Shown here piece after piece: positions 1,092 to 14,892 of a stretch of 14,892 bases of DNA. A program made the position numbers and the translations under genes. Under the pieces are notes generated by a model. The model was not told the DNA's origin. It searched no databases and saw nothing but the letters and a program-made list of their open reading frames with translations. The stretch covers positions 1 to 14,892 of the forward strand of contig JAGWRQ010000031.1 in NCBI GenBank assembly GCA_028869615.1. The letters run 5' to 3'. Positions within the stretch are counted from its first letter, which is position 1. Each line of letters begins with the position of its first letter. The stretch comes from Candidatus Methylomirabilota bacterium. Lineage in GTDB: Bacteria > Methylomirabilota > Methylomirabilia > Methylomirabilales > Methylomirabilaceae.

Positions 1092-1147
1092 GGCTGCTCC
1101 TTGTTGTGGTATGGGACAATGTGACGAACCTGCAACAGTGTTGAACA

Positions 1148-1161
1148 CGACATTTTTGTCG
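1148..1161 (-). other. Small hairpin in the amt leader
   Basis: CGACA (1148-1152) and TGTCG (1157-1161) form a perfect 5-bp stem with a 4-base loop, between the sigma-54 promoter and the amt start. It could be a leader hairpin or an operator half-site pair. The stem is short enough to be chance. Confidence 0.25.
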
Positions 1162-1185
1162 GTACAGACGTTAGGTGTAGAAGTG

Positions 1186-1201
1186 AGCAGTTTCCGTGCC
1201 A
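1186..1201 (-). promoter_or_regulatory. Sigma-54 (-24/-12) promoter for amt
   Basis: On the minus strand the sequence reads TGGCACGGAAACTGCT. The sigma-54 consensus is TGGCACG-N4-TTGCW; this site differs only at the first T of the -12 box. The diagnostic GG and GC are separated by exactly 10 bases. It points toward amt, giving a predicted leader of roughly 80-85 nt. Nitrogen-controlled sigma-54 transcription of amt is well known in other bacteria. I found no clear NtrC site upstream. Confidence 0.75.
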
Positions 1202-1237
1202 ACACCTTTCACTGGCACAAGTATTGAGATTGGAATG

Positions 1238-1400
1238 CGTCGTTGCGAGCGCAGCGCCTGGTCCCCGTCATTGCGAAGCGGAGCCGAAGCAATCTCATCC
1301 GTGCCCACCCGGCGCTGGGAGGTTGCCACGGTCGCTCCGCTCCCTCGCAACGACACTGCGTGTCGAATTGCCGCGCGCCCTTCGGGTGCTCGCAATGACA
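1238..1400. repeat. Palindromic interspersed repeat with four GTCRTTGCGAG motifs
   Basis: Two nested inverted pairs share the core GTCRTTGCGAG: an outer pair at 1239-1250 and about 1389-1399 (reverse), and an inner pair at 1267-1296 and 1319-1354 (reverse). The inner arms match over roughly 30 bases with a few gaps (AGCGGAGC core, CAAYCTC at the inner ends). Short open frames on both strands here read as low-complexity Arg/Ser/Ala-rich peptides and overlap each other, as expected for a structured repeat rather than genes. The architecture resembles dispersed GTCATTGCGAG-type repeats found between genes in many bacterial genomes. It lies between the divergent amt and bc-complex genes. Confidence 0.75.
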
Positions 1401-1495
1401 ATAATAGTTTTCCCTCACCCTCTCGTGACTATAAAATCGGCAGAGTACAGTTGTGGTGCTTATAACTTGGGCGTGTCCTTTTTGCCTTTTTCGCC

Positions 1496-1524
1496 TTGAC
1501 AGGTGCAGGGTGCTATACTATTTA
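1496..1524 (+). promoter_or_regulatory. Possible sigma-70 promoter for the bc-complex gene cluster
   Basis: A perfect TTGACA (1496-1501) is followed after 17 bases by TATTTA (1519-1524), a weak -10 match. A better-looking TATACT (1514-1519) is only 12 bases from TTGACA, too close to pair with it. The site lies about 90 bases before the Rieske gene. Confidence 0.4.
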
Positions 1525-1612
1525 TGCTGCGTGCGGAGTGGAAGGAGATGGTGTTGACGAAGTCAGAGACTTGAGGGCTCGACGAGACCGATCGTCACAG
1601 TAGAGGTGGGCA

Positions 1613-2173
1613 TTGGCCGATCAGATTACCACCGGAGGGGATCGAGAAGATCACGTGATCGCGACGCCAGAGGAGGATAGTGCGACCCTCTGGTCGCGCC
1701 GCGATATTTTTTGTCTTGCGGGATGGTGTGGAATAGCGGCCGGGCTTGGTGTCGGCGGCGTGGCGTTCGGACGCTTTATGTTTCCCCGGGTGCTCTTCGA
1801 GCCGGCAGCGGTCTTCAAGGCCGGCCCTCCGGAAGAGTATCCGGTCGGCACCGTGAGCGAGCGGTGGAAACAGGAGGAGCGCGTCTGGATCGTCCATGAG
1901 CCCGACGGATTTTACGCGCTCCTCGCGATCTGCACACATCTCGGCTGTACCCCAAACTGGCTGAATGCGGAGAACAAGTTCAAATGCCCCTGCCACGGCA
2001 GTGGCTTCCGCAGGAGCGGGATCAACTTTGAGGGTCCCGCCCCTCGGCCGCTGGAGCGGGTCAAGATCACTCTGAGCGACGACGGGCAGCTTGTGATCGA
2101 TAAGAGTGTTCAGTTCCGTTTCGAGCGAGGCGACTGGACCAAGCCGGGGGCGTTTCTCCCGCTTAAAGTGTAG
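1613..2173 (+). CDS. petC: Rieske [2Fe-2S] protein of a cytochrome bc complex
   Basis: This is the Rieske subunit, which takes one electron from quinol at the Qo site and passes it to a c-type cytochrome on the periplasmic side. The 186 residues show a twin-arginine motif SRRDIF (28-33) directly before one membrane anchor (about 34-56), the usual Tat-dependent topology. The cluster motifs follow: C107-T-H-L-G-C112 and C125-P-C-H-G-S130, giving ligands Cys107, His109, Cys125 and His128, with Cys112 and Cys127 able to form the stabilising disulfide. The start is TTG at 1613, supported by GAGGTG about 5 bases upstream; no ATG in frame would keep the Tat region. It is the first gene of the cluster, 39 bases before the cytochrome b gene. 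petC follows b6f naming; qcrA would serve equally well. Confidence 0.95.
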   Translation: MADQITTGGDREDHVIATPEEDSATLWSRRDIFCLAGWCGIAAGLGVGGVAFGRFMFPRVLFEPAAVFKAGPPEEYPVGTVSERWKQEERVWIVHEPDGFYALLAICTHLGCTPNWLNAENKFKCPCHGSGFRRSGINFEGPAPRPLERVKITLSDDGQLVIDKSVQFRFERGDWTKPGAFLPLKV

Positions 2174-2212
2174 CGCCGTTCCAACCGACGCGGTGAAAGG
2201 GTACGATTCTGG

Positions 2213-2983
2213 ATGCCCAACCTGAACGAGTTGAAGAAAAGGATCGTCGAGTCGCAGCTATGGCGCTCGATGTTTCGCCACGATTATCCGGATACCCCAC
2301 GCAACCGGGTGCTGCAGATCATGGCGAATGTCTGGCTGCACCTGCACCCCCCCAAAATACGACGCCATGCCATCAAGATCCGCTTCACCTGGTGCATGGG
2401 CGGCGTTACCTTCCTGATGTTCCTGGTCACGGTGGTGACCGGTGTCATCCTGATGTTCTACTATCGCCCGGTGGCTGAGTACGCCTATGCCGACATGAAA
2501 TACCTGCAATACGATGTACCGTTCGGGATGATCATGCGCAATATGCATCGGTGGGCGGCCCACGGCATGGTGATTACCGTTTGGCTGCACATGTTCCGCG
2601 TGTTTATGACCGGCTCATACAAGCCGCCGAGAGAGTTCAACTGGGTCGTAGGGGTCGTGCTGCTGACCATCACGCTGCTCCTGAGTTTTACGGGCTACCT
2701 GCTGCCATGGGACCAGCTTTCGATCTGGGCCGTGACGGTCGGCACCAACATGGCCAGGGCTACCCCCTTCGTTGGAAGTGAGGGTCCATTTGGCGAGGTG
2801 GTCGGTGTGACCCCGCGGTATGATGCTAGGGCCTTCTTGCTTGGCGGCACCCTCGTCGGACCTCCTGCGCTCCTCAGGTTTTACGTACTGCATTGTATTT
2901 TCTTACCCATCCTGATCAGCCTTCTCATGATCGTGCATTTTTGGAGGATCAGGAAAGACGGGGGGATCTCGGGCCCATTATAG
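2213..2983 (+). CDS. petB: Cytochrome b6-type subunit (N-terminal half of split cytochrome b)
   Basis: This quinol-oxidising membrane subunit carries the two b hemes. It is 256 residues long with four main hydrophobic helices, the size of b6 rather than of full-length mitochondrial-type cytochrome b. Heme ligands are the pairs His112/His126 ([15 protein letters not shown]) and His227/His242. The second pair is 15 residues apart, as in b6, rather than 14 as in bc1. Cys61 in RFTWCMGG aligns by context with the b6 Cys that covalently holds the extra heme c_i. GYLLPWDQ (161-168) and the terminal [10 protein letters not shown] are also b6-like. The ATG at 2213 has only a weak purine-rich stretch upstream (GAAAGGG, about 11 bases away). 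A heptad repeat starts at its stop codon. Confidence 0.95.
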
Positions 2984-3023
2984 TGATTAGTGGTCAGTGA
3001 TGAGTGAAGAGTGGTAGCTGACA
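2982..3023 (+). repeat. Tandem heptad repeat (AGTGRNN) in the petB-petD gap
   Basis: Five consecutive 7-base units begin AGTG: AGTGATT, AGTGGTC, AGTGATG, AGTGAAG, AGTGGTA. They start inside the petB stop codon, and a diverged unit GCTGACA follows. The array fills most of the gap before the next gene. It resembles heptanucleotide STRR-type repeats and the second heptad array at 7361-7443. Confidence 0.7.
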
Positions 3024-3042
3024 ACCAGCGGCGAGCGAAGCG

Positions 3043-3852
3043 ATGGCCGAAGCAAAAGAGAATACGACGCCGAAACCGACTGTACAATCTGCCGATGCGA
3101 AAGAACCCGCAGTGGCGGATAGGGTCCATGTCTGGCCCTACCTCGTCCGTAACGAGTTCATCTGTTCGATCATCGTGATGGTGATTCTGACCGTCTGGTC
3201 GATCACGATCGACGCCCCTTTGGAGGAGCCGGCCAATCCGACACAGACCCCCAATCCAAGCAAGGCGCCATGGTATTTTCTTGGACTTCAGGAGATGCTG
3301 GTCTATTTCGATCCCTGGTTTGCCGGCGTCGTCCTGCCCAGCTTGATCATCGTCGGGCTCATGGTCATCCCATACGTCGATGTGAATCCTAAGGGTAACG
3401 GGTATTACACCTTTCGAGAGCGTCCCTTCGCGATTACGACGTTTCTATTCGGCTTTTTCTTCCTATGGATCTCGCTCATCATCACGGGCGTGTTCTTCAG
3501 AGGTCCAGGCTGGAACCTCTTCTGGCCGTGGGAGATCTGGGACCCCCACATGGTCATTGCGCTTACTAACGTCGATCTGCCTGCGTGGGGTCCGCTCCGG
3601 TGGATGGGCAATCCCAAGATCTTTGGGGTTGAGGTGATCGGGCTCGTATTGATTGCGCTCTACTTCGGCACGGCGCTCGTTTTTTACTTCCTGAAACGGG
3701 ATACGAACGACACGATCCGTCAGTTGGGTCCTGTACGTTACGGGATCGTGGCCTTCCTCTTCCTGACGATGATGAGCCTACCGATCAAGGCGTTTCTCCG
3801 TCTGGCATTCAACATCAAGTACGTCTGGGTGACGCCCTGGTTCAATATCTAA
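3043..3852 (+). CDS. petD: Cytochrome b subunit IV-like protein (C-terminal half of split cytochrome b)
   Basis: This is the partner of the b6-type subunit, completing the Qo pocket. It is 269 residues long, against about 160 in chloroplast subunit IV. Membrane helices lie near 39-55, 92-110, 132-152, 194-216 and 233-251, so two helices extend beyond the usual three. The Qo motif is A75-P-W-Y78, followed by FLGLQEML, in place of PEWY, so the usual Glu is absent. PxWY variants are associated in the literature with menaquinol-using complexes. The ATG at 3043 follows a weak GAGCGAAG; stops just upstream leave no better start. It lies between petB (59-base gap filled by heptad repeats) and the octaheme gene (21-base gap). 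Confidence 0.93.
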   Translation: MAEAKENTTPKPTVQSADAKEPAVADRVHVWPYLVRNEFICSIIVMVILTVWSITIDAPLEEPANPTQTPNPSKAPWYFLGLQEMLVYFDPWFAGVVLPSLIIVGLMVIPYVDVNPKGNGYYTFRERPFAITTFLFGFFFLWISLIITGVFFRGPGWNLFWPWEIWDPHMVIALTNVDLPAWGPLRWMGNPKIFGVEVIGLVLIALYFGTALVFYFLKRDTNDTIRQLGPVRYGIVAFLFLTMMSLPIKAFLRLAFNIKYVWVTPWFNI

Positions 3853-3873
3853 CGCTACAGTCGAGGATGCCTG

Positions 3874-6525
3874 GTGCAGTCGTGGAGAGGGTGGCGCACG
3901 CGTAAGCTGGCAGAGCAGCGATCCTTACGGATTCTGTTCTTTGTTTCGAGCATACTCTTTGTGTTGGTCGCCGTCTGGGCCGTGTGGAATGAGGAAAAGA
4001 CCCGGCGTCCGTGGAAAGCATACCAGCAAGAGTTTAATCGGCTGGAGTATGAACAGGTCGCTAGGGGACTGGCCGAGGAGCGATCGAAGCTCAACACGCC
4101 GGACGTTCGGGCCACCCTTGCCAAGTTGCAGGCGGACCTCAAGGCGGCGCAGGGGAGGTTGGTCGGACCCGAGTCGGCCAAAGCGCAACAACTCCTTGCG
4201 CAACGCGAGTCCGAGTATGCAGCGATGAATATGAAAGCCCAGTTTCTCAAGAGCGAACTGGATGAAGCGCTCTATTGGGTAGAGCATGCCATTCAGGAAA
4301 AAAAAGATACCACACAGCCCCGAGCCAAGGCAGCGGCGATTGAAAAACAGCTACAGGGAGTCACCGCGCAGGCGGATAGGCTGAACGCGCAGGCGGAGGA
4401 GGCTCGCGGGATCGTCAAGCGGTTTCAGGGCGATGTGGATGCCATTCAGGGCCGGATTGAGGAACTCAATGCCCCGGTTATCAACCTTGAGCGACGTCTG
4501 GAGTCGATCAGGGCTCGCTCTCCAGAGATCAAGCAGATTGTTGTGGAGGGCCTGGCGACCAATGAGTTCAAGGAGCCGATCCTGACTGTCGATCGCTGCG
4601 CGACATGCCACCTTGCGATCGACCGGCCCGGCTTTGAGCAGGTCAAGCAACCGTTCCGCACCCATTCGTATCGGGAGGTCCTGTTGGGCAATCATCAGAT
4701 CGCCCGCTTCGGTTGCACAGCGTGCCACCAGGGACAGGGACCGACCCTCGATGTTGACGCGGCGCACGGCGAGGTCCCTCACTGGAATCGTCCGTTGCTG
4801 CGCGGCGACTTTGTGCAGACAAGTTGTCGGAAATGTCATGCCGACAAGAAGGAGTTTGCGCTGGCGCCCGTCTATTCGCGCGGTAGACAGATGGTGGAGG
4901 AACGCGGTTGTTTCGGGTGTCACAGTATGCCGGGGTTCGAGAAGGTTCCGAAGGTGGGGCCGGATCTGACACGGATCGCCAACAAGGTCGATCCGAGTTG
5001 GCTCGTCCGCTGGATCAAGAAACCACGAGAGTACCTCCCCAAGACGAAGATGCCCCATTTTGAGCTGTCTGATGACGACGCGTTGAGCATCGCGGCGTAT
5101 CTTCTCCGTGCTTCCCAGCCCATGCCGGAGCTTCAGGGGACGTTTCAGGCTCTCGCCTCGGCCGAACGCGGAAAGGAGATCGTGAGCAAGGTCGGCTGCC
5201 TTGGCTGTCACCGGATCCCCGGAATTGAGGCGCAGACTCCGCCTTCCGGCGCGCCATCCGCTACATCTCCGGTTCAGGCCCTTACTGCGCAGTTCGCCCC
5301 TCCTCCCTTGCCGGAGGATCAGGATTTCGCGCCGGATCTTTCAAACATCTCCGGCAAGGTGAACGCGGACTGGCTGTTCGCCTGGGTCAAGAATCCGAAG
5401 CAGTTTCGGCCGACAACCAGGATGCCCAATCTGCGTCTCTCCGACGACGAGGCTCGGGCAGTCACCGCCTTCCTGATGACGCTGGGACAGAAGCAACGGG
5501 TTGCCGGCCTGGAGCAGGAGGTGAAAAAGGCCCAGCGGGTCGCGGCAGGTGAACGCCTGATCCGCAAGCGGGGTTGTTTTGGCTGCCACGACGTTAAAGG
5601 GTTTGAGACGTCGGAGAAGATTGCGCCGGATCTCAGCAACTTCGGCCAGAAGCGATTGCTGGAGCTGTTCTTCGGCGAGGCGGTCCAGGTCAAGCAGACT
5701 TGGCAGGATTACACCTTCTGGAAGCTGAAGAATCCCCGGATCTACGCCACCGAACGGGTGGAGCAGTTGATGCCGAACTTTGGCTTTACCGACGAAGAGG
5801 CAAAGACGCTGAGGGTCTACCTGAAGAGCCTCAGCGTCGAGCGTGTCCAGCCGCAGTTCCAGAGGGGTCTTTCCGATGAAGAGCTGGCCATTCAGAACGG
5901 ACGGACCCTTGTAAAACGCTACAACTGTAACGGATGTCACGTCATCGAGGGACAGGGTGGCGCAATAGCTGCTTTTTACGCTAACGAGACCAGAATTCCG
6001 CCTCCCCTTGAGGTGGGAATGATGCATGAGGGGGAGAAAGTCCAAGCCACCTGGCTGTACCAATTCCTTGGGCGACCAATCCCACTCAGGCCGTGGCTGG
6101 ACGTCCGGATGCCGACATTCGGCCTCAGCATCGAGGAATCCACTGCCTTGACGAAGTATTTTGCGGTGATGGGCAAGCAGCATGTGCCCTATGAGTATGT
6201 CTCAGTGGGGGAGCCATCCCACGAGTTGATGAAGGCCGGTCGATTACTGATGTCGAAGGACTACTTCGACTGTTTCACATGTCACCAGCAGGGTGAGAAA
6301 AAGCCCGAGGGCCCGCCGGAGAGCTGGGCGCCTGATCTGAGTCTGGCCAAGCGCCGCTTGCGGCCGATCTGGATCGGCAAGTGGCTGAAGGATCCGCAGA
6401 AGATCCAGCCCGGGACCAAGATGCCCAGCTACTATCCGGACGGTCCGGGCGATATCCTCGAGGGGAAGGAGGACCGGCAGATCCAGGCGATTACTGAATA
6501 CCTGATGCGCTTAGGGGAGAACTGA
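3874..6525 (+). CDS. Membrane-anchored coiled-coil octaheme cytochrome c of the bc complex
   Basis: This is probably the electron acceptor of the complex, replacing cytochrome c1/f. The 883-residue protein has a short basic N-terminus, one uncleaved membrane anchor (about 20-39) and a long Gln/Glu/Ala/Arg-rich region with coiled-coil character (about 45-225). Eight CXXCH motifs follow, with first Cys at 242, 281, 318, 346, 442, 568, 685 and 800. The first three form a tight module without Met-Pro motifs. Each of the last five sits in a monoheme class I-like domain with a later Met-Pro (Met393, 517, 633, 746, 850) as the likely sixth ligand. A Pro-rich insert lies near 452-482. Start is GTG at 3874 with GAGG 7 bases upstream; it follows petD by 21 bases. 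The exact family is not recognised, and its role is inferred from position. Confidence 0.9.
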   Translation: MQSWRGWRTRKLAEQRSLRILFFVSSILFVLVAVWAVWNEEKTRRPWKAYQQEFNRLEYEQVARGLAEERSKLNTPDVRATLAKLQADLKAAQGRLVGPESAKAQQLLAQRESEYAAMNMKAQFLKSELDEALYWVEHAIQEKKDTTQPRAKAAAIEKQLQGVTAQADRLNAQAEEARGIVKRFQGDVDAIQGRIEELNAPVINLERRLESIRARSPEIKQIVVEGLATNEFKEPILTVDRCATCHLAIDRPGFEQVKQPFRTHSYREVLLGNHQIARFGCTACHQGQGPTLDVDAAHGEVPHWNRPLLRGDFVQTSCRKCHADKKEFALAPVYSRGRQMVEERGCFGCHSMPGFEKVPKVGPDLTRIANKVDPSWLVRWIKKPREYLPKTKMPHFELSDDDALSIAAYLLRASQPMPELQGTFQALASAERGKEIVSKVGCLGCHRIPGIEAQTPPSGAPSATSPVQALTAQFAPPPLPEDQDFAPDLSNISGKVNADWLFAWVKNPKQFRPTTRMPNLRLSDDEARAVTAFLMTLGQKQRVAGLEQEVKKAQRVAAGERLIRKRGCFGCHDVKGFETSEKIAPDLSNFGQKRLLELFFGEAVQVKQTWQDYTFWKLKNPRIYATERVEQLMPNFGFTDEEAKTLRVYLKSLSVERVQPQFQRGLSDEELAIQNGRTLVKRYNCNGCHVIEGQGGAIAAFYANETRIPPPLEVGMMHEGEKVQATWLYQFLGRPIPLRPWLDVRMPTFGLSIEESTALTKYFAVMGKQHVPYEYVSVGEPSHELMKAGRLLMSKDYFDCFTCHQQGEKKPEGPPESWAPDLSLAKRRLRPIWIGKWLKDPQKIQPGTKMPSYYPDGPGDILEGKEDRQIQAITEYLMRLGEN

Positions 6526-6597
6526 TGTATATTGTCGGCGCGATGGGCGAAGTCCAACGAAGCTGAGTCATATACCGACAGAAGGAGGCAATGCTCC

Positions 6598-7323
6598 ATG
6601 CGCAGGATACGCGAAATAGTCGCAGTGACCGTTGCGGCGGGTTTTTTTCTTGGAACCGCCGTTCAAGCCTTCGCTTATGAGGGCGGCGAGATAAAAGACG
6701 GCGGGACGATCACCGGTACGATTAAGTTTGCCGGTACCCCACCAGCGCGGAAGGAACTCCAAGTCACCAAAGACAAGGAGATCTGCGGGAAGAAACCACA
6801 CCTGGGCTGGGATCTTATTGTCGGTCCGAACAAAGGGATCGAAAACGCTGTGGTGAGTCTGCTTGATGTGAAAAAAGGGGAGAAGTGGACGATCACGAAG
6901 GCCACGCTGGATCAGAATGGGTGTGTTTATGTGCCGCATGTCGTGGTGATGCCTGCGGGCGGCGACCTGGATATCCTGAACAGCGATGGGATTCTCCACA
7001 ACATTCATACCTATGGTAAGGCGAACCCATCGATCAACAAGGCTCAACCGAAATTCAAGAAGGTATTAACCGAAAAGTTCGCGAAACCGGAGATTGTCAA
7101 GGTCACCTGCGATGCCCATAGTTGGATGCTTGGCTGGCTTGTTGTCTCCGACCATCCGTATGTCGCCGTCACGAACGATAAGGGCGAGTTCACCCTCAGC
7201 AATGTTCCACCAGGACACTATAAACTTGAGGTCTGGCAGGAGACGCTCGGCAAGAAGGTGCAGGACGTGGTCGTCAAAGCGAAGCAGGAGACCAAGCTCA
7301 ACATCGAGCTCGCTAAGCAGTAG
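6598..7323 (+). CDS. Exported cupredoxin-like protein with C-terminal carboxypeptidase-regulatory-like domain
   Basis: This is a periplasmic protein of 241 residues with a signal peptide (MRRIRE... to about residue 26, VQAFA). The middle is a plastocyanin-like fold: LHNIH supplies His134 or His137, and C171-D-A-H174-S-W-M177 supplies the Cys, His and Met expected at a type 1 copper site. The last 65 residues (from about VAVTNDKGEFTLSNVPPG) look like a carboxypeptidase regulatory-like beta sandwich. Start ATG 6598 has GGAGG 9 bases upstream and the signal peptide immediately after; an in-frame TTG at 6532 would put 22 unrelated residues in front, and the ATG at 6591 is out of frame. It follows the octaheme gene by 72 bases, so it may accept electrons from the complex. 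That role is inferred. Confidence 0.85.
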   Translation: MRRIREIVAVTVAAGFFLGTAVQAFAYEGGEIKDGGTITGTIKFAGTPPARKELQVTKDKEICGKKPHLGWDLIVGPNKGIENAVVSLLDVKKGEKWTITKATLDQNGCVYVPHVVVMPAGGDLDILNSDGILHNIHTYGKANPSINKAQPKFKKVLTEKFAKPEIVKVTCDAHSWMLGWLVVSDHPYVAVTNDKGEFTLSNVPPGHYKLEVWQETLGKKVQDVVVKAKQETKLNIELAKQ

Positions 7324-7358
7324 AGCTTACGCAACTAAATTTACAGTTCATCGTTCGT

Positions 7359-7445
7359 AAGCGTTCAGCGGTCAGCAATCAGCCGTCAGCCTCGGACCAA
7401 ACGGAAGGGCATAGTCAGAAGCTGACCGCTGCTGGCTGAAGGCTT
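7359..7445. repeat. Heptad-repeat inverted pair (hairpin) between cupredoxin and ppdK genes
   Basis: The left arm holds four 7-base units GCGTTCA, GCGGTCA, GCAATCA, GCCGTCA (7361-7388). The right arm holds three units in the opposite orientation, TGACCGC, TGCTGGC, TGAAGGC (7423-7443). The outer ends AAGCGTTCAGC and GCTGAAGGCTT pair almost perfectly, so the RNA could fold into a hairpin with a loop of about 30 bases. It sits between the stop of the cupredoxin gene and the start of ppdK. No T-run follows, so it is not a standard intrinsic terminator. Confidence 0.7.
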
Positions 7446-7472
7446 GCCATAGTCCAACTCATGGGGGAAAAA

Positions 7473-10136
7473 ATGGGGATCGCCAAAAAATATACGTACT
7501 TCTTCGGAAAGGGTCGGGCTGAAGGCAGGGCGGAGCAAAAGAATCTTCTCGGGGGCAAGGGGGCGAACCTCCATGAGATGACTACCCTCAAGATCCCGGT
7601 GCCGCCCGGCTTTACCATCTCTACCGACGCCTGCATTGAATACTTCAAGCAGGGGAGACGCTTCCCACGTGGGCTCTGGTCCGAGGTCGAGGCCCAGGTT
7701 GCCAAGCTGGAGCGCGCTATGGGAAAGCGGTTCGGCGATCCAAAAGATCCCCTTTTGGTCTCTGTCCGCTCAGGGGCGCGGATCTCCATGCCGGGGATGA
7801 TGGACACTGTGTTGAACCTGGGGTTGAACGACGAAACGGTCCAGGGTCTTATACAGCGTTCCCACAACCCGCGCTTTGCCTACGATAGTTACCGGCGGCT
7901 TCTCCAGATGTTTGGGGACGTGGTGCTGGGCATCAAAAAAATAGCGTTTGAGGGGCTCCTCAGCGAAAAGAAGCGGCAGAAAAGGGCTGCGGCTGACACG
8001 GATCTGAACGCCAAAGATCTTCTGGACTTGGTCGGGAAGTTTCAAGCGATTGTTCGGCGCGAAGCGGGGCGGGAATTTCCCCAGGATCCCCAGGAGCAGC
8101 TTCGTATGGCGATCGGAGCCGTGTTCGAATCCTGGAACAACAAACGGGCTATCGAGTACCGGCGGATCTATAAGGTGCCGGACGACTGGGGTACCGCTGT
8201 GAATATCCAGGCCATGGTCTTCGGCAATCTGGGCGAGGACTCCGGAACGGGCGTCGCGTTCACCCGCGATCCGTCTATAGGGGACAGACGAATCTACGGG
8301 GAGTTTCTCCAGAATGCCCAAGGGGAAGACGTGGTGGCGGGCATCAGGACTCCCCGTCCCATTGCGGCCTTGAAGGAGGCGTGGCCTCGCGTCTACCGGG
8401 AGTTTGAGCGGATCTGCAGAACGCTGGAGCGCCATTATCGGGACATGATGGACATCGAGTTCACCATCGAGGACGGGAAGCTCTACATGCTGCAGTGCCG
8501 CGTCGGCAAGAGGACGGCCCACGCCGCCATCAAGATCGCCGTGGACATGGCCAAGGAGCGCCTGATCGACCGAAAGGTGGCCGTCTTGCGGGTGGAACCC
8601 TGGCAACTCGAACAACTGCTACACCCGAGGATCGATCCGAAGTTGCAGATCCGCAAGGTCGCGAAGGGTCTGCCGGCCTCACCGGGCGCTGCCGTCGGGA
8701 AGGCGGTCTTCACAGCGGAGGAGGCGGTGGAGGCCGCGGAGCGGCGCGAGAAGGTCATCCTGGTCAGGCCCGAGACCTCTCCGGAGGACATCGCGGGGAT
8801 GGTGGCCGCCCAGGGGATCCTCACTGCTCGAGGAGGCCTCACCAGCCATGCTGCCGTGGTGGCGCGGGGCATGGGGAAGGCCTGTGTTGCCGGCTGCACC
8901 GATATCGTCGTCAACGAGGAAGACGGATACTTTCAGGTGGCGAATCTGACCGTTCGACGAGGAGACCCGATCACGATCGACGGCACGACGGGTGACGTCA
9001 TCATCGGAGAGGTGAAACTGACTCAGCCTGAAGAGCTGACCGGTGAGTTTGGCGCTCTGATTGCGTGGGCAGACGGCTTTCGGAAGATCGGTATCAGGAC
9101 CAACGCCGATACGCCGAAAGATGCGCAGGTCACGCGACAGTTCGGCGCCGAGGGAATCGGCCTCTGCCGAACCGAACATATGTTCTTCGAGGGGGATCGG
9201 ATCGTCGCCGTACGGGAGATGATCCTGGCCAAAGACGCTGCCGAGCGTCGGAAGGCCCTGGCCAAGCTCCTGCCGATGCAGAAGCAGGACTTCAAGGCGA
9301 TCTTCGAACTCATGGACGGTCTCCCTGTTATCATCAGGACGTTGGATCCCCCATTGCATGAGTTCCTCCCGAGAAAGGACGAGGAGATTCGAAAGGTCGC
9401 GGAGAACATGGGGGTATCGGAGGAGGCGCTCAAGGAAAAGGTTCGCTTCCTCCAGGAGTTCAATCCGATGCTGGGCCATCGTGGCTGCCGCCTCGGGATT
9501 ACCTACCCTGAGATCACCGAGATGCAGGCGCGGGCGATCTTTGAGGCGGCTTGCGAGCTGAAACGGGAAGGGAAGCGCCCATTTCCGGAGATCATGATCC
9601 CTCTCGTCGGCCACGTGAAAGAGCTGCAGCTCCAGCGCGAGATCGTAGATCGGGTTGCTCGAGAGGTGATGAAGGAGTATGGTGTGAAGGTCCGCTACCT
9701 TGTGGGGACCATGATCGAGCTGCCCAGGGCGGCGTTAGTGGCCGATCAGATCGCCGAGGCGGCCGACTTCTTCTCCTTCGGGACCAACGACCTGACCCAG
9801 ACCACCTTCGGGTTTTCGCGGGACGACTCTGGCCGGTTTCTCCCCCTCTATTTAGAGAAAGGGATCCTTTCGTCCGATCCCTTCGCCGTCCTCGACGAAC
9901 AAGGAGTGGGAACGCTCATGCGGATCGGGATAGAAAAAGGACGGCGGGCCAAGCGACAGTTGGAGGTCGGCATCTGCGGCGAGCATGGGGGCGAGCCCAA
10001 CTCCGTCGAGCTCTGCCACCGGTTAGGCCTGGATTACGTGAGCTGCTCCCCGTACCGTGTCCCCATCGCCAAACTGGCGGCGGCCCATGCCGTCCTGAAG
10101 GGGCAGGTCAAGGTCAAGGAGATGGGGGAGAAATAG
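7473..10136 (+). CDS. ppdK: Pyruvate, phosphate dikinase
   Basis: This cytoplasmic enzyme interconverts pyruvate, ATP and phosphate with phosphoenolpyruvate, AMP and pyrophosphate. It serves gluconeogenesis or PPi-linked glycolysis. The 887 residues match the usual length. The N-terminus KKYTYFFGKG...LLGGKGANLHEM and the nucleotide-binding segment SVRSGARISMPGMMDT are characteristic. The phosphorylated His459 lies in GGLTSHAAVVARGMGKA. The C-terminal PEP/pyruvate domain has GTNDLTQTTFGFSRDD and the catalytic Cys835 in VGICGEHGGEP. I chose ATG 7473, which matches family N-termini and has a GGGGGA stretch just upstream; the in-frame ATG at 7461 would add four residues without a good ribosome site. 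A heptad hairpin lies just upstream. A diverged stub of its C-terminus recurs at 13409-13465. It is metabolically unrelated to its neighbours. Confidence 0.97.
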   Translation: MGIAKKYTYFFGKGRAEGRAEQKNLLGGKGANLHEMTTLKIPVPPGFTISTDACIEYFKQGRRFPRGLWSEVEAQVAKLERAMGKRFGDPKDPLLVSVRSGARISMPGMMDTVLNLGLNDETVQGLIQRSHNPRFAYDSYRRLLQMFGDVVLGIKKIAFEGLLSEKKRQKRAAADTDLNAKDLLDLVGKFQAIVRREAGREFPQDPQEQLRMAIGAVFESWNNKRAIEYRRIYKVPDDWGTAVNIQAMVFGNLGEDSGTGVAFTRDPSIGDRRIYGEFLQNAQGEDVVAGIRTPRPIAALKEAWPRVYREFERICRTLERHYRDMMDIEFTIEDGKLYMLQCRVGKRTAHAAIKIAVDMAKERLIDRKVAVLRVEPWQLEQLLHPRIDPKLQIRKVAKGLPASPGAAVGKAVFTAEEAVEAAERREKVILVRPETSPEDIAGMVAAQGILTARGGLTSHAAVVARGMGKACVAGCTDIVVNEEDGYFQVANLTVRRGDPITIDGTTGDVIIGEVKLTQPEELTGEFGALIAWADGFRKIGIRTNADTPKDAQVTRQFGAEGIGLCRTEHMFFEGDRIVAVREMILAKDAAERRKALAKLLPMQKQDFKAIFELMDGLPVIIRTLDPPLHEFLPRKDEEIRKVAENMGVSEEALKEKVRFLQEFNPMLGHRGCRLGITYPEITEMQARAIFEAACELKREGKRPFPEIMIPLVGHVKELQLQREIVDRVAREVMKEYGVKVRYLVGTMIELPRAALVADQIAEAADFFSFGTNDLTQTTFGFSRDDSGRFLPLYLEKGILSSDPFAVLDEQGVGTLMRIGIEKGRRAKRQLEVGICGEHGGEPNSVELCHRLGLDYVSCSPYRVPIAKLAAAHAVLKGQVKVKEMGEK

Positions 10137-10189
10137 GACCTCCCCTATTTAGGGAGCGCAGGCGCGGCTACCGTGAGATCTGGGAAGCA
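10074..10189. repeat. Junction repeat, copy A (ppdK 3' end plus peroxidase 3' stub)
   Basis: This segment aligns with 13409-13516 in direct orientation. By hand there are about 13 mismatches in about 100 aligned positions, with one 6-base and one 2-base gap. Here the ppdK side belongs to the intact gene, while the peroxidase side is a stub. The 6-base gap keeps the ppdK frame. Copies A and B flank the three-gene operon 10227-13265. Confidence 0.85.
10145..10189 (-). pseudogene. Stub of a diheme peroxidase C-terminus (ccp2-like)
   Basis: Read on the minus strand, this 45-base piece translates as CFPDLTVAAPALPK plus a TAG stop, against CPDLKVAAPALPK plus TAG at the true end of the peroxidase gene at 13472. 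Beyond 10189 the similarity stops abruptly. It is a gene remnant left by a duplication or insertion, not a working gene. Confidence 0.8.
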
Positions 10190-10226
10190 CTGGCTCCCTC
10201 ACGTCGGTTTTCCGCTGGCCATTTGC

Positions 10227-10967
10227 TTAATGTTTTCCTGGGTCCAAGGTCTTCCCCGCGCGCGCAGAGAGGATATACGCTTCCAGAGCCTTCATCTTGG
10301 AATCGTCACCCGTAAGTTTCTTCCCCTCCATCGGGTTTTCGATGCACCAATTAATCATGTCCCTGAGGAGGGCGAGCGCCTTCAACTGCGTCTGGAACTT
10401 GGGATAGGTCTCGGGATGTGTGTTTGAAGCATTCGGATGGCACATGTCACAGGAAATGCCGTTGGTTCCCAGCGACGAACTGTGAAAGAGGTTATAGCCT
10501 TCCTCGATCACCCGCTTCTGCTCGGCGGCCCAGACGCGCAACTCCCGCTCCGTGTGCAGCACCCCCCCGTGGACGAGTAGAAGGGGCAAGTTCTGTTCGA
10601 CTTCTCTCATCTCGACGAATGGCTGGCCGTCGATGGACAGATAGACTGTCGTCTCCTGCTGGGGGAGTCTGGCGAGGACGCGGTAGTCACAGTACTTCAT
10701 CAGCGCCATGAGGAGCTTCGCCACCTGTCGGGCTTTCTCCGGGGGGAGTACCGTGCCCTGCCGATAGCCCTCCACGATGACCGTCTTCTTCTTATCGCAT
10801 GCCGTCACCGTTTTCGTGACCCATGGCTCATCGGAAGCAGAGGCCACATGCATGGCGAAAGGTCCGGCAGCGCCTGTGGCATTGATGTGCCGCGTAACGA
10901 AGAGGGCGCCGGCTACAGCCATCACGGCAATGAGGCCGAGCGCCCCGACAACCAATCGTATTCGCAT
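10227..10967 (-). CDS. Exported monoheme cytochrome c with a SoxA/TsdA-like heme domain
   Basis: This is a 246-residue periplasmic protein with an N-terminal signal or anchor (about 5-24). Residues 45-165 form a domain I do not recognise, containing Cys57 and Cys93. The C-terminal heme domain has C173-D-M-C176-H177 followed by PNASNTHPETYP and LRDMINWCIENPMEGKKL, then an ALEAYI helix. This layout recalls the heme domains of SoxA/TsdA-type cytochromes, where a conserved Cys can be a heme ligand; Cys208 is at a suggestive position. No obvious Met ligand follows in a class I Met-Pro motif. ATG 10967 has AGGAGG about 8 bases upstream. It is the last gene of the operon, 24 bases after the phosphoesterase gene. 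Its partner and substrate are unknown. Confidence 0.85.
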   Translation of the reverse strand: MRIRLVVGALGLIAVMAVAGALFVTRHINATGAAGPFAMHVASASDEPWVTKTVTACDKKKTVIVEGYRQGTVLPPEKARQVAKLLMALMKYCDYRVLARLPQQETTVYLSIDGQPFVEMREVEQNLPLLLVHGGVLHTERELRVWAAEQKRVIEEGYNLFHSSSLGTNGISCDMCHPNASNTHPETYPKFQTQLKALALLRDMINWCIENPMEGKKLTGDDSKMKALEAYILSARAGKTLDPGKH

Positions 10968-10991
10968 CGCTTTCCCTCCTTTTCCCCAATC

Positions 10992-12101
10992 TTAATACGA
11001 GGGGCCTGGGGCAGCTGCTTTGCCGGATGCCAGTTGAGCCGCGGCGACGACCGTCGGGTTCCGATCCCACGGTCTGTAAATTTTGTTCGCTTGCCCAGTC
11101 GCGAGGAGATCCACGTTCCCCCATCCACAGCCATCAAACTGGTTGAACGGATCAGCCCGATCCATCTGGACGGTGAGCTTGGGAAGCCCCTCGGGAGCGT
11201 ACGGCCAGGGCCAGGCCGTAGAGAGCACACCGTGAAAGTGAATGTTACCGATCCTGTTCGTCAGGACCTGGTGGGTGTGGGCGTGGATTACCGTCACAGA
11301 CGTGAAAGGCGCCAGGAGCTTTTGCACCGCTTCGGCATCGTCGGTCCAGAAGTTCCAGGGCTTGTAGTACTTGTACAGGGGGGAGTGGGAGAAGATCACG
11401 AGGGGGGTCGTCTTATCTACCTGGGCCAGATTCTTCCCGAGCCAGTCTCGTTGCTCCTCGCCGACCGTGAACGGCCTGCCCTTCGGATTGTCGAGCTGGG
11501 CCATAAAGAGCATCCGCTCCATCGGTTTCATCTTAGGGGCTGTCCAGTAGTCCTCCACGATGACGCTGTTCAGGACGACGAAATGGACCCCCTTGTGGTC
11601 GAAGGCATACCACGGGTTGCCGAACAGCTCGCGCCACTTCTCCCCCATGTCGAAGTACCAATCGTGCTCCCCGACCATCATGTACCGTTTCACTTTCAGT
11701 TCATCAAGGATTTCTTTGCCGAGCTTCAGCTCCTCAGCTTGGCCGAGCTGGGCCAGATCGCCCCCGAAGAGCACGAAATCGGGCGGTGGGCTCATGGCAT
11801 TGACATCTTGCACCGCCTTCAGGGCGGCCTTCGCGAAGCGGTGCGTCATCCCTCGGGCGAAGAGGTGAGTGTCGGACACATACGCGAGGGTGAACTTGTC
11901 GGCGCCATAGGCCAGCTCCACAGGCTGGAAGGAATGCGGCGCGTAGGAGATGATGTGGTGCCCGAATCGCACCACCAGATCCGAGGCGGCGGCCATGGCG
12001 GCCACCTTCCCGGCGGCTGAGAAGAACTCCCGTCGGCTCATCTGTTGCAGTGAGGTGAAGAGCTTCTCCCGTTTCTCGGGACGCAGCATCTGTTGCTTCA
12101 T
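10992..12101 (-). CDS. Tat-exported calcineurin-like metallophosphoesterase
   Basis: This is a dimetal phosphoesterase of the calcineurin-like superfamily, predicted to be periplasmic. The 369 residues begin with a Tat signal, SRREFFSAAGKVAAMAAAS (22-40). Metal-site motifs run in order: D77-T-H79 in YVSDTHL, G-G-D115, GEH146-D147, H239 in FSHSPLY, and HAH275-T-H277. The usual GNHD is GEHD here, so Glu145 replaces the conserved bridging Asn. It is much shorter than SoxB/5'-nucleotidases and lacks their C-terminal domain. Its substrate is unknown. ATG 12101 has AAGGAGG about 8 bases upstream. It is the middle gene of the operon, 18 bases after the peroxidase gene and 24 before the cytochrome. 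A Tat-exported phosphoesterase between two cytochrome genes suggests a redox-linked or cofactor-linked role, which is inference. Confidence 0.9.
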   Translation of the reverse strand: MKQQMLRPEKREKLFTSLQQMSRREFFSAAGKVAAMAAASDLVVRFGHHIISYAPHSFQPVELAYGADKFTLAYVSDTHLFARGMTHRFAKAALKAVQDVNAMSPPPDFVLFGGDLAQLGQAEELKLGKEILDELKVKRYMMVGEHDWYFDMGEKWRELFGNPWYAFDHKGVHFVVLNSVIVEDYWTAPKMKPMERMLFMAQLDNPKGRPFTVGEEQRDWLGKNLAQVDKTTPLVIFSHSPLYKYYKPWNFWTDDAEAVQKLLAPFTSVTVIHAHTHQVLTNRIGNIHFHGVLSTAWPWPYAPEGLPKLTVQMDRADPFNQFDGCGWGNVDLLATGQANKIYRPWDRNPTVVAAAQLASGKAAAPGPSY

Positions 12102-12119
12102 CTGTCCTTCCTCCTTGAA

Positions 12120-13265
12120 CTATCGATCCCCTCTACGCTCGAGTTCCTTGACGAGCGAGGGCAGATCGTCGCTGGTCAGGGCCTTCAGGAGTTCGATGAG
12201 ATCCTCTCGCTCCTGCTCCGAAAGACCAAGAGGCCGTATTCCGCCATCGAGATTCGGGTTCGGCACTCCGCCCTTGTCATAGAACTCAATCATGCTCTTC
12301 AGGGACGCTTCACTCCCGTCGTGCATGTATGGCGCGGTCAACGCGATGTTCCTGAGCCCTGGGGTCTTAAAGGCACCGATATCCCTGGGCTGCTTCGTGA
12401 CGAGATACCGGCCCAACTCGGCAGCCCCAGACTCATGGGCCAGCCCGGCAACATCCGTTTCGATAGCGGCCTTCCGAGCCAGAGCTTCGAAGTTGACGTC
12501 CTTCATCGCAACCCCGATGTTGTGGAATTTGTTGTCGGTGAAGAAGGGATAGGAGGCGTTGAACTCATGGCAGGTTATGCAGCGAGCCTTGCCCTGGAAT
12601 AGCTCCCATCCTCGCTGAGCAGAGGGACTGAGGGCAGTTTTGTCGCCGGCAATGAAGCGATCGAAAGGAGAGTTAAAGGTGTTCAGGGTCCGTTCGAAGG
12701 CTGCGATGGCTTTCGCCAGTTGATCGATGGTCAACTCCGCTGTCCCGAAGACTTCTTGGAATCCTCGGCGGTACGTCGGGATCGTCCGTAGTTTCGTCAC
12801 GAGGGCATCATGTGATGGCATCCCCATTTCAACGGGATTCACAAGGGGCCCTTTGGCTTGCTCCTCCAGGGTCGGAGCGCGGCCGTCCCAGAACTGGGCG
12901 TCCAGAAAGGCGGTATTCAACGTGGTGGGACTGTTCCTGACCCCCTTCTTCTGTTGGATTCCCTCGGCGACCTTTTTCCCATCCGCAAATCCAAACTTGG
13001 GGTTATGGCAGGTAGCACAGCTAACGGTGTCGTCGAGAGAGAGCCGTTTGTCAAAGTAGAGGGTTCGCCCCAGCGCCACCTTCCCTTCGGTCAGCGGGTT
13101 ATCCTCCGGGATGATGGGCTCGAGGACGCCGTGCGGCAGTGCTAACGTGTAAGGCCCGGATTCCTGTCGTTGTGCAGAAAAGACCTGTACATCATTGACC
13201 GGCCAAAGGCTTACTCCAATGAGTACAGCGCTCAGAGTGACTACAGCGAGTCCCGAGGGTCTCAT
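12120..13265 (-). CDS. Diheme cytochrome c peroxidase (CcpA/MauG family)
   Basis: This is a periplasmic diheme enzyme, most likely reducing hydrogen peroxide with electrons from a c-type cytochrome. The 381 residues begin with a signal peptide or anchor (about 6-31). The low-potential heme site is C83-A-T-C-H87, with Glu146 in NPVEMG matching the conserved active-site Glu. The second heme is C229-I-T-C-H233, and Met314 in APYMHDGS is the usual distal ligand of the high-potential heme, as in classical bacterial peroxidases (MauG has Tyr there). GAFKTPGLRN before it is also typical. ATG 13265 has AAGGAGG about 8 bases upstream. It is first in the operon, so the downstream cytochrome might be its electron donor. 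MauG-type protein modification cannot be excluded. Confidence 0.93.
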   Translation of the reverse strand: MRPSGLAVVTLSAVLIGVSLWPVNDVQVFSAQRQESGPYTLALPHGVLEPIIPEDNPLTEGKVALGRTLYFDKRLSLDDTVSCATCHNPKFGFADGKKVAEGIQQKKGVRNSPTTLNTAFLDAQFWDGRAPTLEEQAKGPLVNPVEMGMPSHDALVTKLRTIPTYRRGFQEVFGTAELTIDQLAKAIAAFERTLNTFNSPFDRFIAGDKTALSPSAQRGWELFQGKARCITCHEFNASYPFFTDNKFHNIGVAMKDVNFEALARKAAIETDVAGLAHESGAAELGRYLVTKQPRDIGAFKTPGLRNIALTAPYMHDGSEASLKSMIEFYDKGGVPNPNLDGGIRPLGLSEQEREDLIELLKALTSDDLPSLVKELERRGDR

Positions 13266-13289
13266 GCGTCAGCCTCCTTGGTGGAATAG

Positions 13290-13318
13290 AACGTAAAGAT
13301 TCAAACGGTGTTTGTCAA
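13290..13318 (-). promoter_or_regulatory. Possible promoter of the peroxidase-phosphoesterase-cytochrome operon
   Basis: On the minus strand a perfect TTGACA (13318-13313) is followed after 17 bases by TACGTT (13295-13290), a poor -10 box. It ends 25 bases before the peroxidase start codon. The perfect -35 is the main support. Confidence 0.35.
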
Positions 13319-13402
13319 GCTATTTCAGGATGGTACTTCAGTGTGCGGCCGGGTAAAAATCGCTTGGCGGGTCAAGGACGAAAGGAGATACTAAGATTGC
13401 GA

Positions 13403-13419
13403 GCCGCCCTGTCGGCGGC
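13403..13419. other. GC-rich hairpin near the junction repeat
   Basis: GCCGCC (13403-13408) and GGCGGC (13414-13419) form a perfect 6-bp stem with a 5-base loop at the left edge of junction copy B. No T-run follows, so it is not a clear terminator. Confidence 0.35.
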
Positions 13420-13465
13420 CTATGCCGTCAGGCGGGTCAAGGTCAAAGAGATGGGGGAGAAGTGA
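13409..13465 (+). pseudogene. Stub of the ppdK C-terminus
   Basis: The frame reads LSAAYAVRRVKVKEMGEK followed by TGA, against LAAAHAVLKGQVKVKEMGEK at the end of the intact ppdK. The difference includes an in-frame two-codon gap, which argues that the ancestor was coding. Nothing resembling ppdK precedes it in the gap, so only about 18 codons remain. Confidence 0.8.
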
Positions 13466-13516
13466 CCTCTCCTATTTAGGAAGCGCAGGCGCAGCTACCT
13501 TGAGATCAGGGCAGCT
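13409..13516. repeat. Junction repeat, copy B (ppdK 3' stub plus ccp2 3' end)
   Basis: This is the direct repeat of 10074-10189. Here the peroxidase side is the intact gene end and the ppdK side is the stub. Together the copies enclose 13190-13516 minus-strand promoter-side sequence and the whole operon downstream of it, from 10227 to 13265. Confidence 0.85.
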
Positions 13517-14503
13517 CAGCGACTTCAGGAACGCCACCAGATCCCCCTTTTCCTGGGACGTCAAATGAAGCGGCTTGATCTCTTTCGAGAGGTGGGGATT
13601 CTTTGTGCCGCCCTTATCGTAGAAGTCGATCACGTCCTCAAGAGTCTTCGCGCTACCGTCATGCAGATAGGGCGCGCTGGCGGTGATGTTACGCAACGTC
13701 GGCGTCTTGAACGCTCCCTTTTCGGACTCTTTCTTCGTGACCTTAAAGCGGCCAAGATCCGGGTCCGCCTTGTCCATGCCCACGCCGATGTTATGATAGC
13801 TTTCATCGGTGAAATTGAAGCCCGTATGACAGGTCTCACAGTTCGCCTTTTCTCGAAAAAGGATGAGCCCACGCTTGGCGCTCAGAGTGAGGGCCTTTTG
13901 GTCCCCGGCCGCAAACCTGTCAAAGGCAGAGTTGCCACAGAGGAGGGTTCGCTCGAAGGATGCGATGGCCTTGCCGACTCCGTCTTTGGTCACAGGAGTG
14001 CCGAACACCTTCTTGAATTGCTCCCGGTATCCCTCCAACTTATCCAGGGTCGAAACCATCCCTTGCAGGGTGTGACCCATCTCGATCGGGTTTTGGACCG
14101 GGCCCAGCGCCTGGTCTTCCAGCGAGGGCGACCGGCCATCCCAGAACTGATCCTGGCTGAAGAGGCGATTGATCGTGACCGGGGCATTGCGCCCGCCCAC
14201 CTGGCCTTTAATCCCAGTGGAGGTGGGGCGGCCGTCTGAAAACCCTTTGTCCGGCGCGTGACAGGTCGCGCAAGCCACGGTCCCGTCGGCTGAGAGTCGC
14301 TTGTCAAAATAGAGCTGTTTGCCGAGGTTGATCTTGGCGGCCGTCAACGGATTGTCTGGGGGGATATACGCCGCATCCTCTTGCAGACCCAACGGCATCT
14401 TGAGCTTGTACGCTTCCTCCGCGCCGCTTCCCATAACGGAAAGACCCAATACCATGGAGAATAGCGTGCCAACAATGAGTACCCCTCTCGCCCGTCGTTG
14501 CAT
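13472..14503 (-). CDS. Diheme peroxidase-like protein lacking the distal Met ligand
   Basis: This second CcpA/MauG-family protein has 343 residues with a signal peptide (about 1-28). Heme sites are C78-A-T-C-H82 and C222-E-T-C-H226; Glu141 in NPIEMG is kept, as are GAFKTPTLRN and FYDKGG. At the position of the high-potential heme Met the sequence is APYLHDGS, so Leu280 cannot ligate iron as Met or Tyr would. It is therefore not a standard peroxidase at that heme. I chose ATG 14503, with GGGAGGG about 6 bases upstream and the signal peptide following; the upstream in-frame ATG at 14563 would add 20 charged residues ahead of the signal. It shares strand and family with the peroxidase at 12120-13265 but has a 206-base gap to it, so it may be transcribed separately. 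Confidence 0.9.
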   Translation of the reverse strand: MQRRARGVLIVGTLFSMVLGLSVMGSGAEEAYKLKMPLGLQEDAAYIPPDNPLTAAKINLGKQLYFDKRLSADGTVACATCHAPDKGFSDGRPTSTGIKGQVGGRNAPVTINRLFSQDQFWDGRSPSLEDQALGPVQNPIEMGHTLQGMVSTLDKLEGYREQFKKVFGTPVTKDGVGKAIASFERTLLCGNSAFDRFAAGDQKALTLSAKRGLILFREKANCETCHTGFNFTDESYHNIGVGMDKADPDLGRFKVTKKESEKGAFKTPTLRNITASAPYLHDGSAKTLEDVIDFYDKGGTKNPHLSKEIKPLHLTSQEKGDLVAFLKSLSCPDLKVAAPALPK

Positions 14504-14605
14504 GCTGTCCCTCCCGGTCCTCGTGTGACCGCCGCGTTTACGCAGCAATTCAGGCCTGTTCACCTTCGCCCCGTCAACAGCTCCTTGCCATCACTTCGGC
14601 GTTTT

Positions 14606-14640
14606 TATATAGCACATCCGAAGAGGCAACACAATGACTG
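14606..14640 (-). promoter_or_regulatory. Possible promoter of the second peroxidase gene
   Basis: On the minus strand TATATA (14611-14606) is preceded by TTGTGT with a 17-base spacer; the -35 match is only partial. It lies about 100 bases upstream of the chosen start. This is the AT-richest spot of the divergent spacer between this gene and the heme A synthase gene; the rest of 14504-14773 shows nothing else I can name. Confidence 0.3.
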
Positions 14641-14711
14641 AGACATCATTTTTTTAGGGTGCGTCGAGCGGTCTACAGCCGGAGGTGGCGCAAGGGGATA
14701 CCCGTTTTTCA

Positions 14712-14740
14712 TTGACTTCGCTTCGCGGCTCGGCTAGATA
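14712..14740 (+). promoter_or_regulatory. Possible promoter of the heme A synthase gene
   Basis: TTGACT (14712-14717) and TAGATA (14735-14740) are 17 bases apart. The -35 is a 5/6 match and the -10 is weak. The start codon follows 33 bases after the -10 box. Confidence 0.35.
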
Positions 14741-14773
14741 ACGTAGTCTATGCTGAATCATAGCGAGAGGTCA

Positions 14774-14892
14774 ATGACCCATACCCGTGCACGAGTTCAC
14801 AACCCCTGGCCCCATCGATTCGCCCTGGCGACCGCGACATCAACGTTGTTGTTGATCTTTGTAGGCGGCCTGGTTACGAACACCGGAGCGGG
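14774..14892 (+). CDS. ctaA: Heme A synthase CtaA/COX15, N-terminus only
   Basis: This encodes the inner-membrane enzyme that oxidises heme O to heme A for aa3-type oxidases. Only 39 codons are visible. They read a short polar head, HNPWPHRFALATA, then a first helix ending LLIFVGGLVTNTGAG, which is the typical COX15/CtaA start (GGLVTNTGSG in relatives). ATG 14774 has GAGAGG about 4 bases upstream. It is divergent from the second peroxidase gene. Oxidase assembly or subunit genes commonly follow this gene and would lie beyond the window. Confidence is limited by the short visible part. Confidence 0.8.
   Translation, partial: MTHTRARVHNPWPHRFALATATSTLLLIFVGGLVTNTGA

Follow-up and report, generated by a model that had tools for sequence, protein, structure and literature searches.

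A foreign three-gene redox operon has probably replaced a resident cassette between ppdK and a dihaem peroxidase gene in a Candidatus Methylomirabilota bacterium

In this study, we report on a stretch of 14,892 nucleotides (positions 1-14,892, forward strand, of contig JAGWRQ010000031.1, assembly GCA_028869615.1) from a Candidatus Methylomirabilota bacterium, referred to below as the window, in which a three-gene redox operon lies between ppdK, encoding pyruvate phosphate dikinase, and the gene for a CCP/MauG-type dihaem peroxidase, here named CCPa. The operon, designated type B, encodes a second CCP/MauG-type dihaem protein (CCP381), a calcineurin-like metallophosphoesterase (MPE369) and a cytochrome c, and is bracketed by two copies, J1 and J2, of a ppdK/peroxidase junction (Table 1). 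Relatives of the same genus carry at this site a different cassette, designated type A, with genes for a CnaB-like protein, a metallophosphoesterase (MPE410), a cytochrome c, a SoxYZ-like carrier and a peroxidase, CCPb. Comparison of these loci, of the DNA upstream of the cassettes and of the ancestry of their genes indicated that the foreign type B cassette probably replaced a resident type A cassette in place.

The preliminary description of this DNA, made from its letters alone, had proposed that a direct repeat of about 110 bp flanks the operon, with a divergence of roughly 13 per 100 positions, and that a 14-codon peroxidase tail and an 18-codon ppdK tail remain as stubs. When the two junctions were aligned, as it had suggested, positions 10074-10188 matched 13409-13515 over 115 columns at 83% identity, with 12 mismatches in 107 ungapped columns (about 11%) and 8 gap columns, close to the divergence first given. 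The local score of 134, against a best of 30 among 300 shuffles, rejected chance resemblance, and the pair was the top direct repeat in an independent repeat search; the shuffles used here, and for the upstream and remnant comparisons below, preserve single-base composition only. Both tails were found in frame, with one intact end and one stub in each copy. At J1 the end of ppdK is intact and the peroxidase is a stub (in-frame translation CFPDLTVAAPALPK followed by the stop), while at J2 ppdK is the stub and the end of CCPa is intact. The J1 stub is also present in a second genome, G004, where 40 of its 45 nucleotides are identical. Since the same layout recurs in G004, the duplicated junction is not an assembly artefact.

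The ppdK gene was searched for in 60 genomes, the window's own (G000) included, which gave 11 usable same-genus loci with the window among them; G001, G002, G006 and G011 are of the same genus but lack a usable ppdK locus and lie outside this count. The window's ppdK is 86-95% identical to that of the 10 other loci. A separate homologue scan for ppdK yielded 80 loci, none more than 64% identical and none syntenic, some of which were used as entry points for the CCP381 search. Type B was found at two of the eleven loci, those of the window and G004, which correspond gene for gene (ppdK 95%, CCP381 94%, MPE369 95%, cytochrome 92% and CCPa 85% identity). Type A lies behind ppdK in five. It is complete up to CCPa in G003, G005, G008 and G013, in the order ppdK, CCPb, SoxYZ-like carrier, cytochrome c, metallophosphoesterase, CnaB-like protein, CCPa and ctaA-ctaB, with one extra gene before CCPa in G003, which we read as encoding a YVTN-repeat protein; in G012 the cassette starts and the contig ends within the metallophosphoesterase gene. 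In two more genomes (G009 and G010) ppdK is directly convergent with a single peroxidase gene and there is no cassette, and in the last two (G007 and G014) type A adjoins ctaA on a contig other than that of ppdK, after which 1.1 and 2.3 kb are visible. No CCPa stands between ctaA and the YVTN gene in G007 and G014 (loci L119, L120 and L191-L193). The flanks, with ppdK on one side and CCPa and ctaA on the other, are alike in the window, G004 and the four complete type A genomes.

The two cassette types exclude each other in the genus. Among 15 same-genus genomes, the type B metallophosphoesterase was found in two, that of type A in seven and neither in six, and no genome had more than one; G000 and G004, both draft assemblies, have one each, of type B. 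Type A extends to more distant genomes of the class (G035, G037, G039, G069 and G076), and therefore looks like the resident cassette. An ancestor that held both cassettes in tandem, with lineages losing one or the other, would account for the two types at one site behind similar upstream DNA. However, none of the 15 genomes has both, all other lineages would need to have lost type B, and between its two carriers type B has diverged less than its flanks, so that we regard such an ancestor as highly improbable. Common to the two cassettes are the families of the metallophosphoesterase and of the cytochrome c of SoxA/TsdA type and, within the genus, site and promoter DNA, but type A has CnaB and the SoxYZ-like carrier where type B has the dihaem protein as a cassette gene, and the two metallophosphoesterases are only about 50% identical. 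For the SoxYZ-like protein of type A, the closest model is that of the quinoprotein dehydrogenase-associated SoxYZ-like carrier, at 104 bits, which is under the cut-off of 140. In type A loci (e.g. L116 of G005) this carrier, a SoxYZ-like fusion, stands beside the metallophosphoesterase, a SoxA/TsdA-type cytochrome c and the CnaB-like protein, and a Sinorhizobium americanum plasmid carries a similar set of CnaB, metallophosphoesterase and cytochrome c.

Strains with ppdK directly convergent with a peroxidase gene had been predicted, and exist in G009 and G010. The preliminary description had also taken such a plain locus for the immediate ancestor, but five same-genus loci carry type A with CCPb, and the ppdK tree joins each plain locus to a type A locus as its sister, G010 pairing with G005 (100/100) and G009 with G003 (100/99). 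As two losses are simpler than repeated gains, the plain loci look like later losses of an ancestral type A; it is likely, though, that a ppdK-CCP ancestor existed further back, ahead of the duplication. In a check of the plain loci for hybrid peroxidases left by cassette loss, that of G010 was CCPa-like throughout, and the last 300 columns of that of G009 were not CCPa-like (16 sites like CCPa, 21 like CCPb), which is weak evidence.

The DNA upstream of CCP381 was then compared with that upstream of the CnaB gene in type A loci, and gave scores of 85 (G007), 74 (G003), 50 (G005), 42 (G013) and 40 (G008), against maxima of 20-28 in 300 shuffles each. The alignment with G003 begins ten bases beyond the start codon and the other four at the start codon itself; the ribosome-binding site is included and, with G007, 82 bases of the window are spanned. 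A TTGACA box, a 17-base spacer and a TAnnTT box recur in the window, in G004 and in each of the five type A loci. The upstream regions of six type B relatives, in contrast, scored 15-17, under the shuffle maxima, and five control regions scored 13-16; for one relative, the MJC1 plasmid introduced below, the compared stretch lacks the last 38 bases before the annotated start. The upstream DNA is not a dispersed promoter element, since the genome has only one other match, a weak one of 21 bases (E 0.25). A promoter scan gave no call here, and the second box, TACGTT, fits the consensus at only three of six places. Since this upstream DNA matches that of type A and not that of the type B kin, the simplest reading is that type B was set behind the old, resident type A promoter. 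Similar promoter DNA before both cassettes suggests, in turn, that the two may answer the same need and perform interchangeable work under the same control.

Homologue surveys of the metallophosphoesterase pointed to kin of type B in the Beijerinckiaceae. In the phylum (95 genomes), 22 matches at E <=1e-60 comprised G000, G004 and 20 others, those 20 being only 43-51% identical; gene context was viewed for 12 of the 20. Among 199 genomes of the family of Rhodoblastus acidophilus, which we take to be the Beijerinckiaceae, there were 14 matches at E <=1e-80, four of them at 60-61%. The type B gene order (CCP, metallophosphoesterase, cytochrome c) is found in those four genomes and on a plasmid of Methylocystis sp. 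MJC1 (NZ_CP107559.1), as well as in three more genomes viewed of that family and in G312, the one match when 24 genomes were searched from the phylum to which a Nitrospinaceae record belongs. All three type B proteins had their best match among plasmid records in MJC1, and a search with CCP381 of seven genomes and the Methylocystis plasmid matched three of the eight, the plasmid best (53%). The plasmid and the four genomes thus have the same three families in the same order, at 51-53%, 56-59% and 36-43% identity (for the cytochrome c, 41-43% to the third gene of four of the operons and 36% to that of the fifth); these operons differ from that of the window in having other neighbours and no similarity in upstream DNA. 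On the MJC1 plasmid (L210, 4008-9852) a Tn3-family transposase gene lies 1.3 kb from the operon, and toxin-antitoxin and insertion sequence genes are close by.

Two of the type B genes, those for MPE369 and CCP381, were placed in trees. Both metallophosphoesterase trees split the window's protein and its type B kin from type A, with support of 100/99 in the first and 100/100 in the second, which omits two long rows of the first (G017 and G312). Forcing the genus together cost 161 log units and was rejected by the approximately unbiased (AU) test (p 4e-49). In the peroxidase tree, CCP381 groups with the Methylocystis plasmid copy, apart from CCPa and CCPb. By the surveys, trees and AU test the operon looks foreign to the site, as the preliminary description had supposed. 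The branch from the window's metallophosphoesterase to every sampled kin is long, and therefore no donor is named.

The ppdK tail in front of CCPa bears on the age of the duplicated junction. This remnant scored 80 in G000 and 65 in G004, which none of 2000 shuffles equalled, and it was also detected in two type A genomes, G005 (44; 2 of 2000 shuffles as good) and G013 (40; 4 of 2000). CCPb forms a supported clade (99/98) of six genomes from across the genus, with the CCPa-position copies outside it, which makes the peroxidase duplication ancestral to these lineages; the window's CCPa groups with the CCPa-position copies of G004, G005, G008 and G013 and with the peroxidase of G010 (93/97). Since a ppdK remnant occurs in type A genomes without type B, the duplicated junction appears, from these alignments, to be older than the type B operon.

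This apparent age affects the two routes offered in the preliminary description, both of which had the operon's arrival make the duplication. In the first, a single-crossover (Campbell-type) event, a circle carrying type B and a junction would have recombined with the resident ppdK-CCPa junction, creating the repeat. It predicts, as is seen, that each copy has one end intact and the other a stub and that the peroxidase tails are alike, and plain ppdK-peroxidase loci exist; but it accounts neither for the type A promoter DNA between type B and J2 nor for the ppdK remnant of type A genomes, unless a relative already so arranged was the source of the circle, and the plain loci look derived. We consider this route unlikely. 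In the second, the ppdK-CCPa region would have been duplicated in tandem and then trimmed by deletions, type B arriving between the two copies simultaneously; the stubs would be the two inner ends of the duplicated unit, which would suit the somewhat CCPa-like tail at J1. The CCPa/CCPb duplication is, however, already genus-wide, the upstream DNA is that of type A and a fresh duplication is not needed, and this route seems less probable still. The preliminary interpretation thus kept its duplicated junction, stubs, plain strains and foreign operon, but not a plain immediate ancestor, nor a duplication made by the operon's arrival, the remnant being present in G005 and G013, which have type A.

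From the junctions, the cassette states, the shared upstream DNA and the separate ancestry of the metallophosphoesterase, all observed, we infer an order of events and a route of recombination for displacement in place. The ancestor of the genus would have carried type A between ppdK and CCPa, that is CnaB, metallophosphoesterase, cytochrome c, the SoxYZ-like carrier and CCPb convergent with ppdK. A leftover ppdK tail would already have lain between the type A promoter and CCPa, forming with the CCPa/CCPb pair an old duplicated junction. In the lineage of the window and G004, type B would have replaced the segment that begins with the start codon of the first type A gene and stops about 14 codons short of the CCPb end, with about 3.1 kb taking the place of the type A genes, the old promoter and leader being retained in front of type B and a peroxidase tail behind it. 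We take the J1 stub to mark where the replaced segment ends on the left.

Several observations weigh against this reading. The J1 stub, expected to be a CCPb tail, is nearer to the window's CCPa (39 of 45 nucleotides for the window's stub and 39 of 45 for that of G004), the nearest CCPb tail being that of G005 (35 of 45). Three of six CCPa tails are no closer to the window's stub than the G005 CCPb (G004 35, G013 34 and G003 28), the stub of G004 scores 35 and 28 against the CCPa tails of G013 and G003, and 45 bases are too few to settle whether the stub is a CCPa or a CCPb tail. J1 lacks the intergenic hairpin of the relatives, and so does G012, a type A genome. Together, the missing hairpin and the CCPa-like stub call for gene conversion between the junctions or another route; such conversion, or an integration that copied the CCPa tail, is a possible source of the stub. 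The ppdK remnant is marginal in G008 (28; 83 of 2000 shuffles) and was not found in G003, and the CCPa-position copies form two groups (93/97 and 89/86) that the tree did not join as one supported clade. The ppdK tree, with its open backbone, pairs the window and G004 (84/88) but does not place them among the type A lineages, and four of the six same-genus genomes with neither metallophosphoesterase are only 80-83% complete.

The hairpin itself, a strong one (TAGACTGAAGGCTGAAGG... and its inverse), lies between the convergent ppdK and peroxidase genes of G010 (L114; z -4.65) and other same-genus loci. In G013 and G003 a second copy stands beside CCPa, the hairpin region also being duplicated. 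Neither junction of the window has it, and the G010 copy, searched against the window's genome, found nothing beyond a match of 19 bases. A bidirectional terminator that would keep the J1 stub in place was not supported by folding (z 0.35 and -0.16 in the window, -1.30 and -0.91 in G004).

Between the window and G004, 83 of 484 fourfold sites differ within type B, as against 408 of 1425 across seven genes of the flanks (Fisher p 4e-7). The lower divergence is carried by the metallophosphoesterase and CCP381 genes (56/364 against 113/432 in ppdK, p 2e-4), and the cytochrome is no different from ppdK (p 0.48). In the six pairs formed by four type A genomes, the divergence of cassette genes mostly follows that of their flanks, several being lower in G005/G013 and G005/G003. 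Since dips thus occur in two of the six type A pairs, that of type B, in a comparison covering the genes of the locus, is suggestive only; it would fit a later spread between lineages.

Table 1. Features of the exchange region in the window
Feature	Position	Strand	Basis
ppdK, pyruvate phosphate dikinase, intact; left flank of exchange site	7461..10136	+	Pfam PPDK_N, PEP-utilizers, PEP-utilizers_C
J1, junction copy 1: ppdK 3' end and peroxidase tail stub	10074..10188	+	83% identical to J2 over 115 columns
Dihaem peroxidase tail stub, 14 codons with stop	10145..10189	-	In-frame translation
Type B gene 3, SoxA/TsdA-type cytochrome c, 246 aa	10227..10967	-	PF21342 E 3e-11; one CXXCH
Type B gene 2, MPE369, calcineurin-like metallophosphoesterase, 369 aa	10992..12101	-	PF00149 E 6e-15; trees
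Type B gene 1, CCP381, CCP/MauG-type dihaem protein, 381 aa	12120..13265	-	PF03150 E 2e-60; two CXXCH
Promoter and leader, apparently inherited from type A	13263..13344	-	Aligned upstream of CnaB in G007, G003, G005, G013, G008
Predicted promoter and leader motifs, upstream of the start codon	AAGGAGG 13273-13279; TACGTT 13290-13295; 17-nt spacer; TTGACA 13313-13318	-	Predicted
J2, junction copy 2: ppdK tail remnant and intact peroxidase 3' end	13409..13515	+	Alignment to J1; remnant also in G004, G005, G013
ppdK tail remnant, 18 codons and stop	13409..13465	+	In frame, ends ...VKVKEMGEK and stop; scored against the genome's own ppdK end
CCPa, resident dihaem peroxidase of CCP/MauG type, called at 363 aa with an uncertain start codon; right flank	13472..14563	-	PF03150 E 5e-61

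The three redox genes, all on the minus strand, fill the stretch between the junctions, and no integrase or transposase gene was found there in a scan that left out overlapping antisense frames. The cut-offs of curated models were not reached: with TIGR03791 (MauG), CCP381 scored 249.5 bits and CCPa 267.9 bits, both under the cut-off of 443.85, CCP381 was also below the cut-off of TIGR04039, and the SoxA model TIGR04484 gave 36.8 bits against a cut-off of 110. The N-terminal SRREFF of MPE369 presumably resembles a twin-arginine translocation (Tat) signal. The families suggest that type B is a redox and phosphoester-hydrolysis unit of the periplasm, whose dihaem protein would be likely to exchange electrons with the monohaem cytochrome c. 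Further to the left, an open frame on the minus strand at 3-1205, truncated by the start of the window, is ammonium transporter-like by eye, and a Rieske/split cytochrome b set at 1613-3852 (cytochrome b by our own reading) precedes a gene for an 883-aa multihaem cytochrome c at 3874-6525, itself before a CnaB-like gene at 6532-7323.

Xenologous gene displacement in situ within operons is a known kind of event, in which a distant homologous set replaces resident genes and the neighbours and control DNA are kept. The window matches it in its foreign genes, the same site and flanks, the absence of the resident version and the apparently retained resident control DNA, and differs in that a whole cassette of partly different gene content is concerned, inside an apparently older duplicated junction whose stubs mark its ends. 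Tentatively, the stretch between ppdK and CCPa might be a natural exchange site for redox cassettes, swapped, lost and spread again by homologous recombination without an integrase. If so, the fixed promoter on one side and the repeated ppdK and peroxidase ends on both would enable the swaps, and the low fourfold divergence of type B would be a trace of later spread. The locus offers an unusually legible operon replacement, with cassette states, old promoter and leftover ends of flanking genes visible within one genus, and the two cassette types, linked by a common metallophosphoesterase and SoxA/TsdA-type cytochrome c, give a handle on operons that family models leave unsettled.

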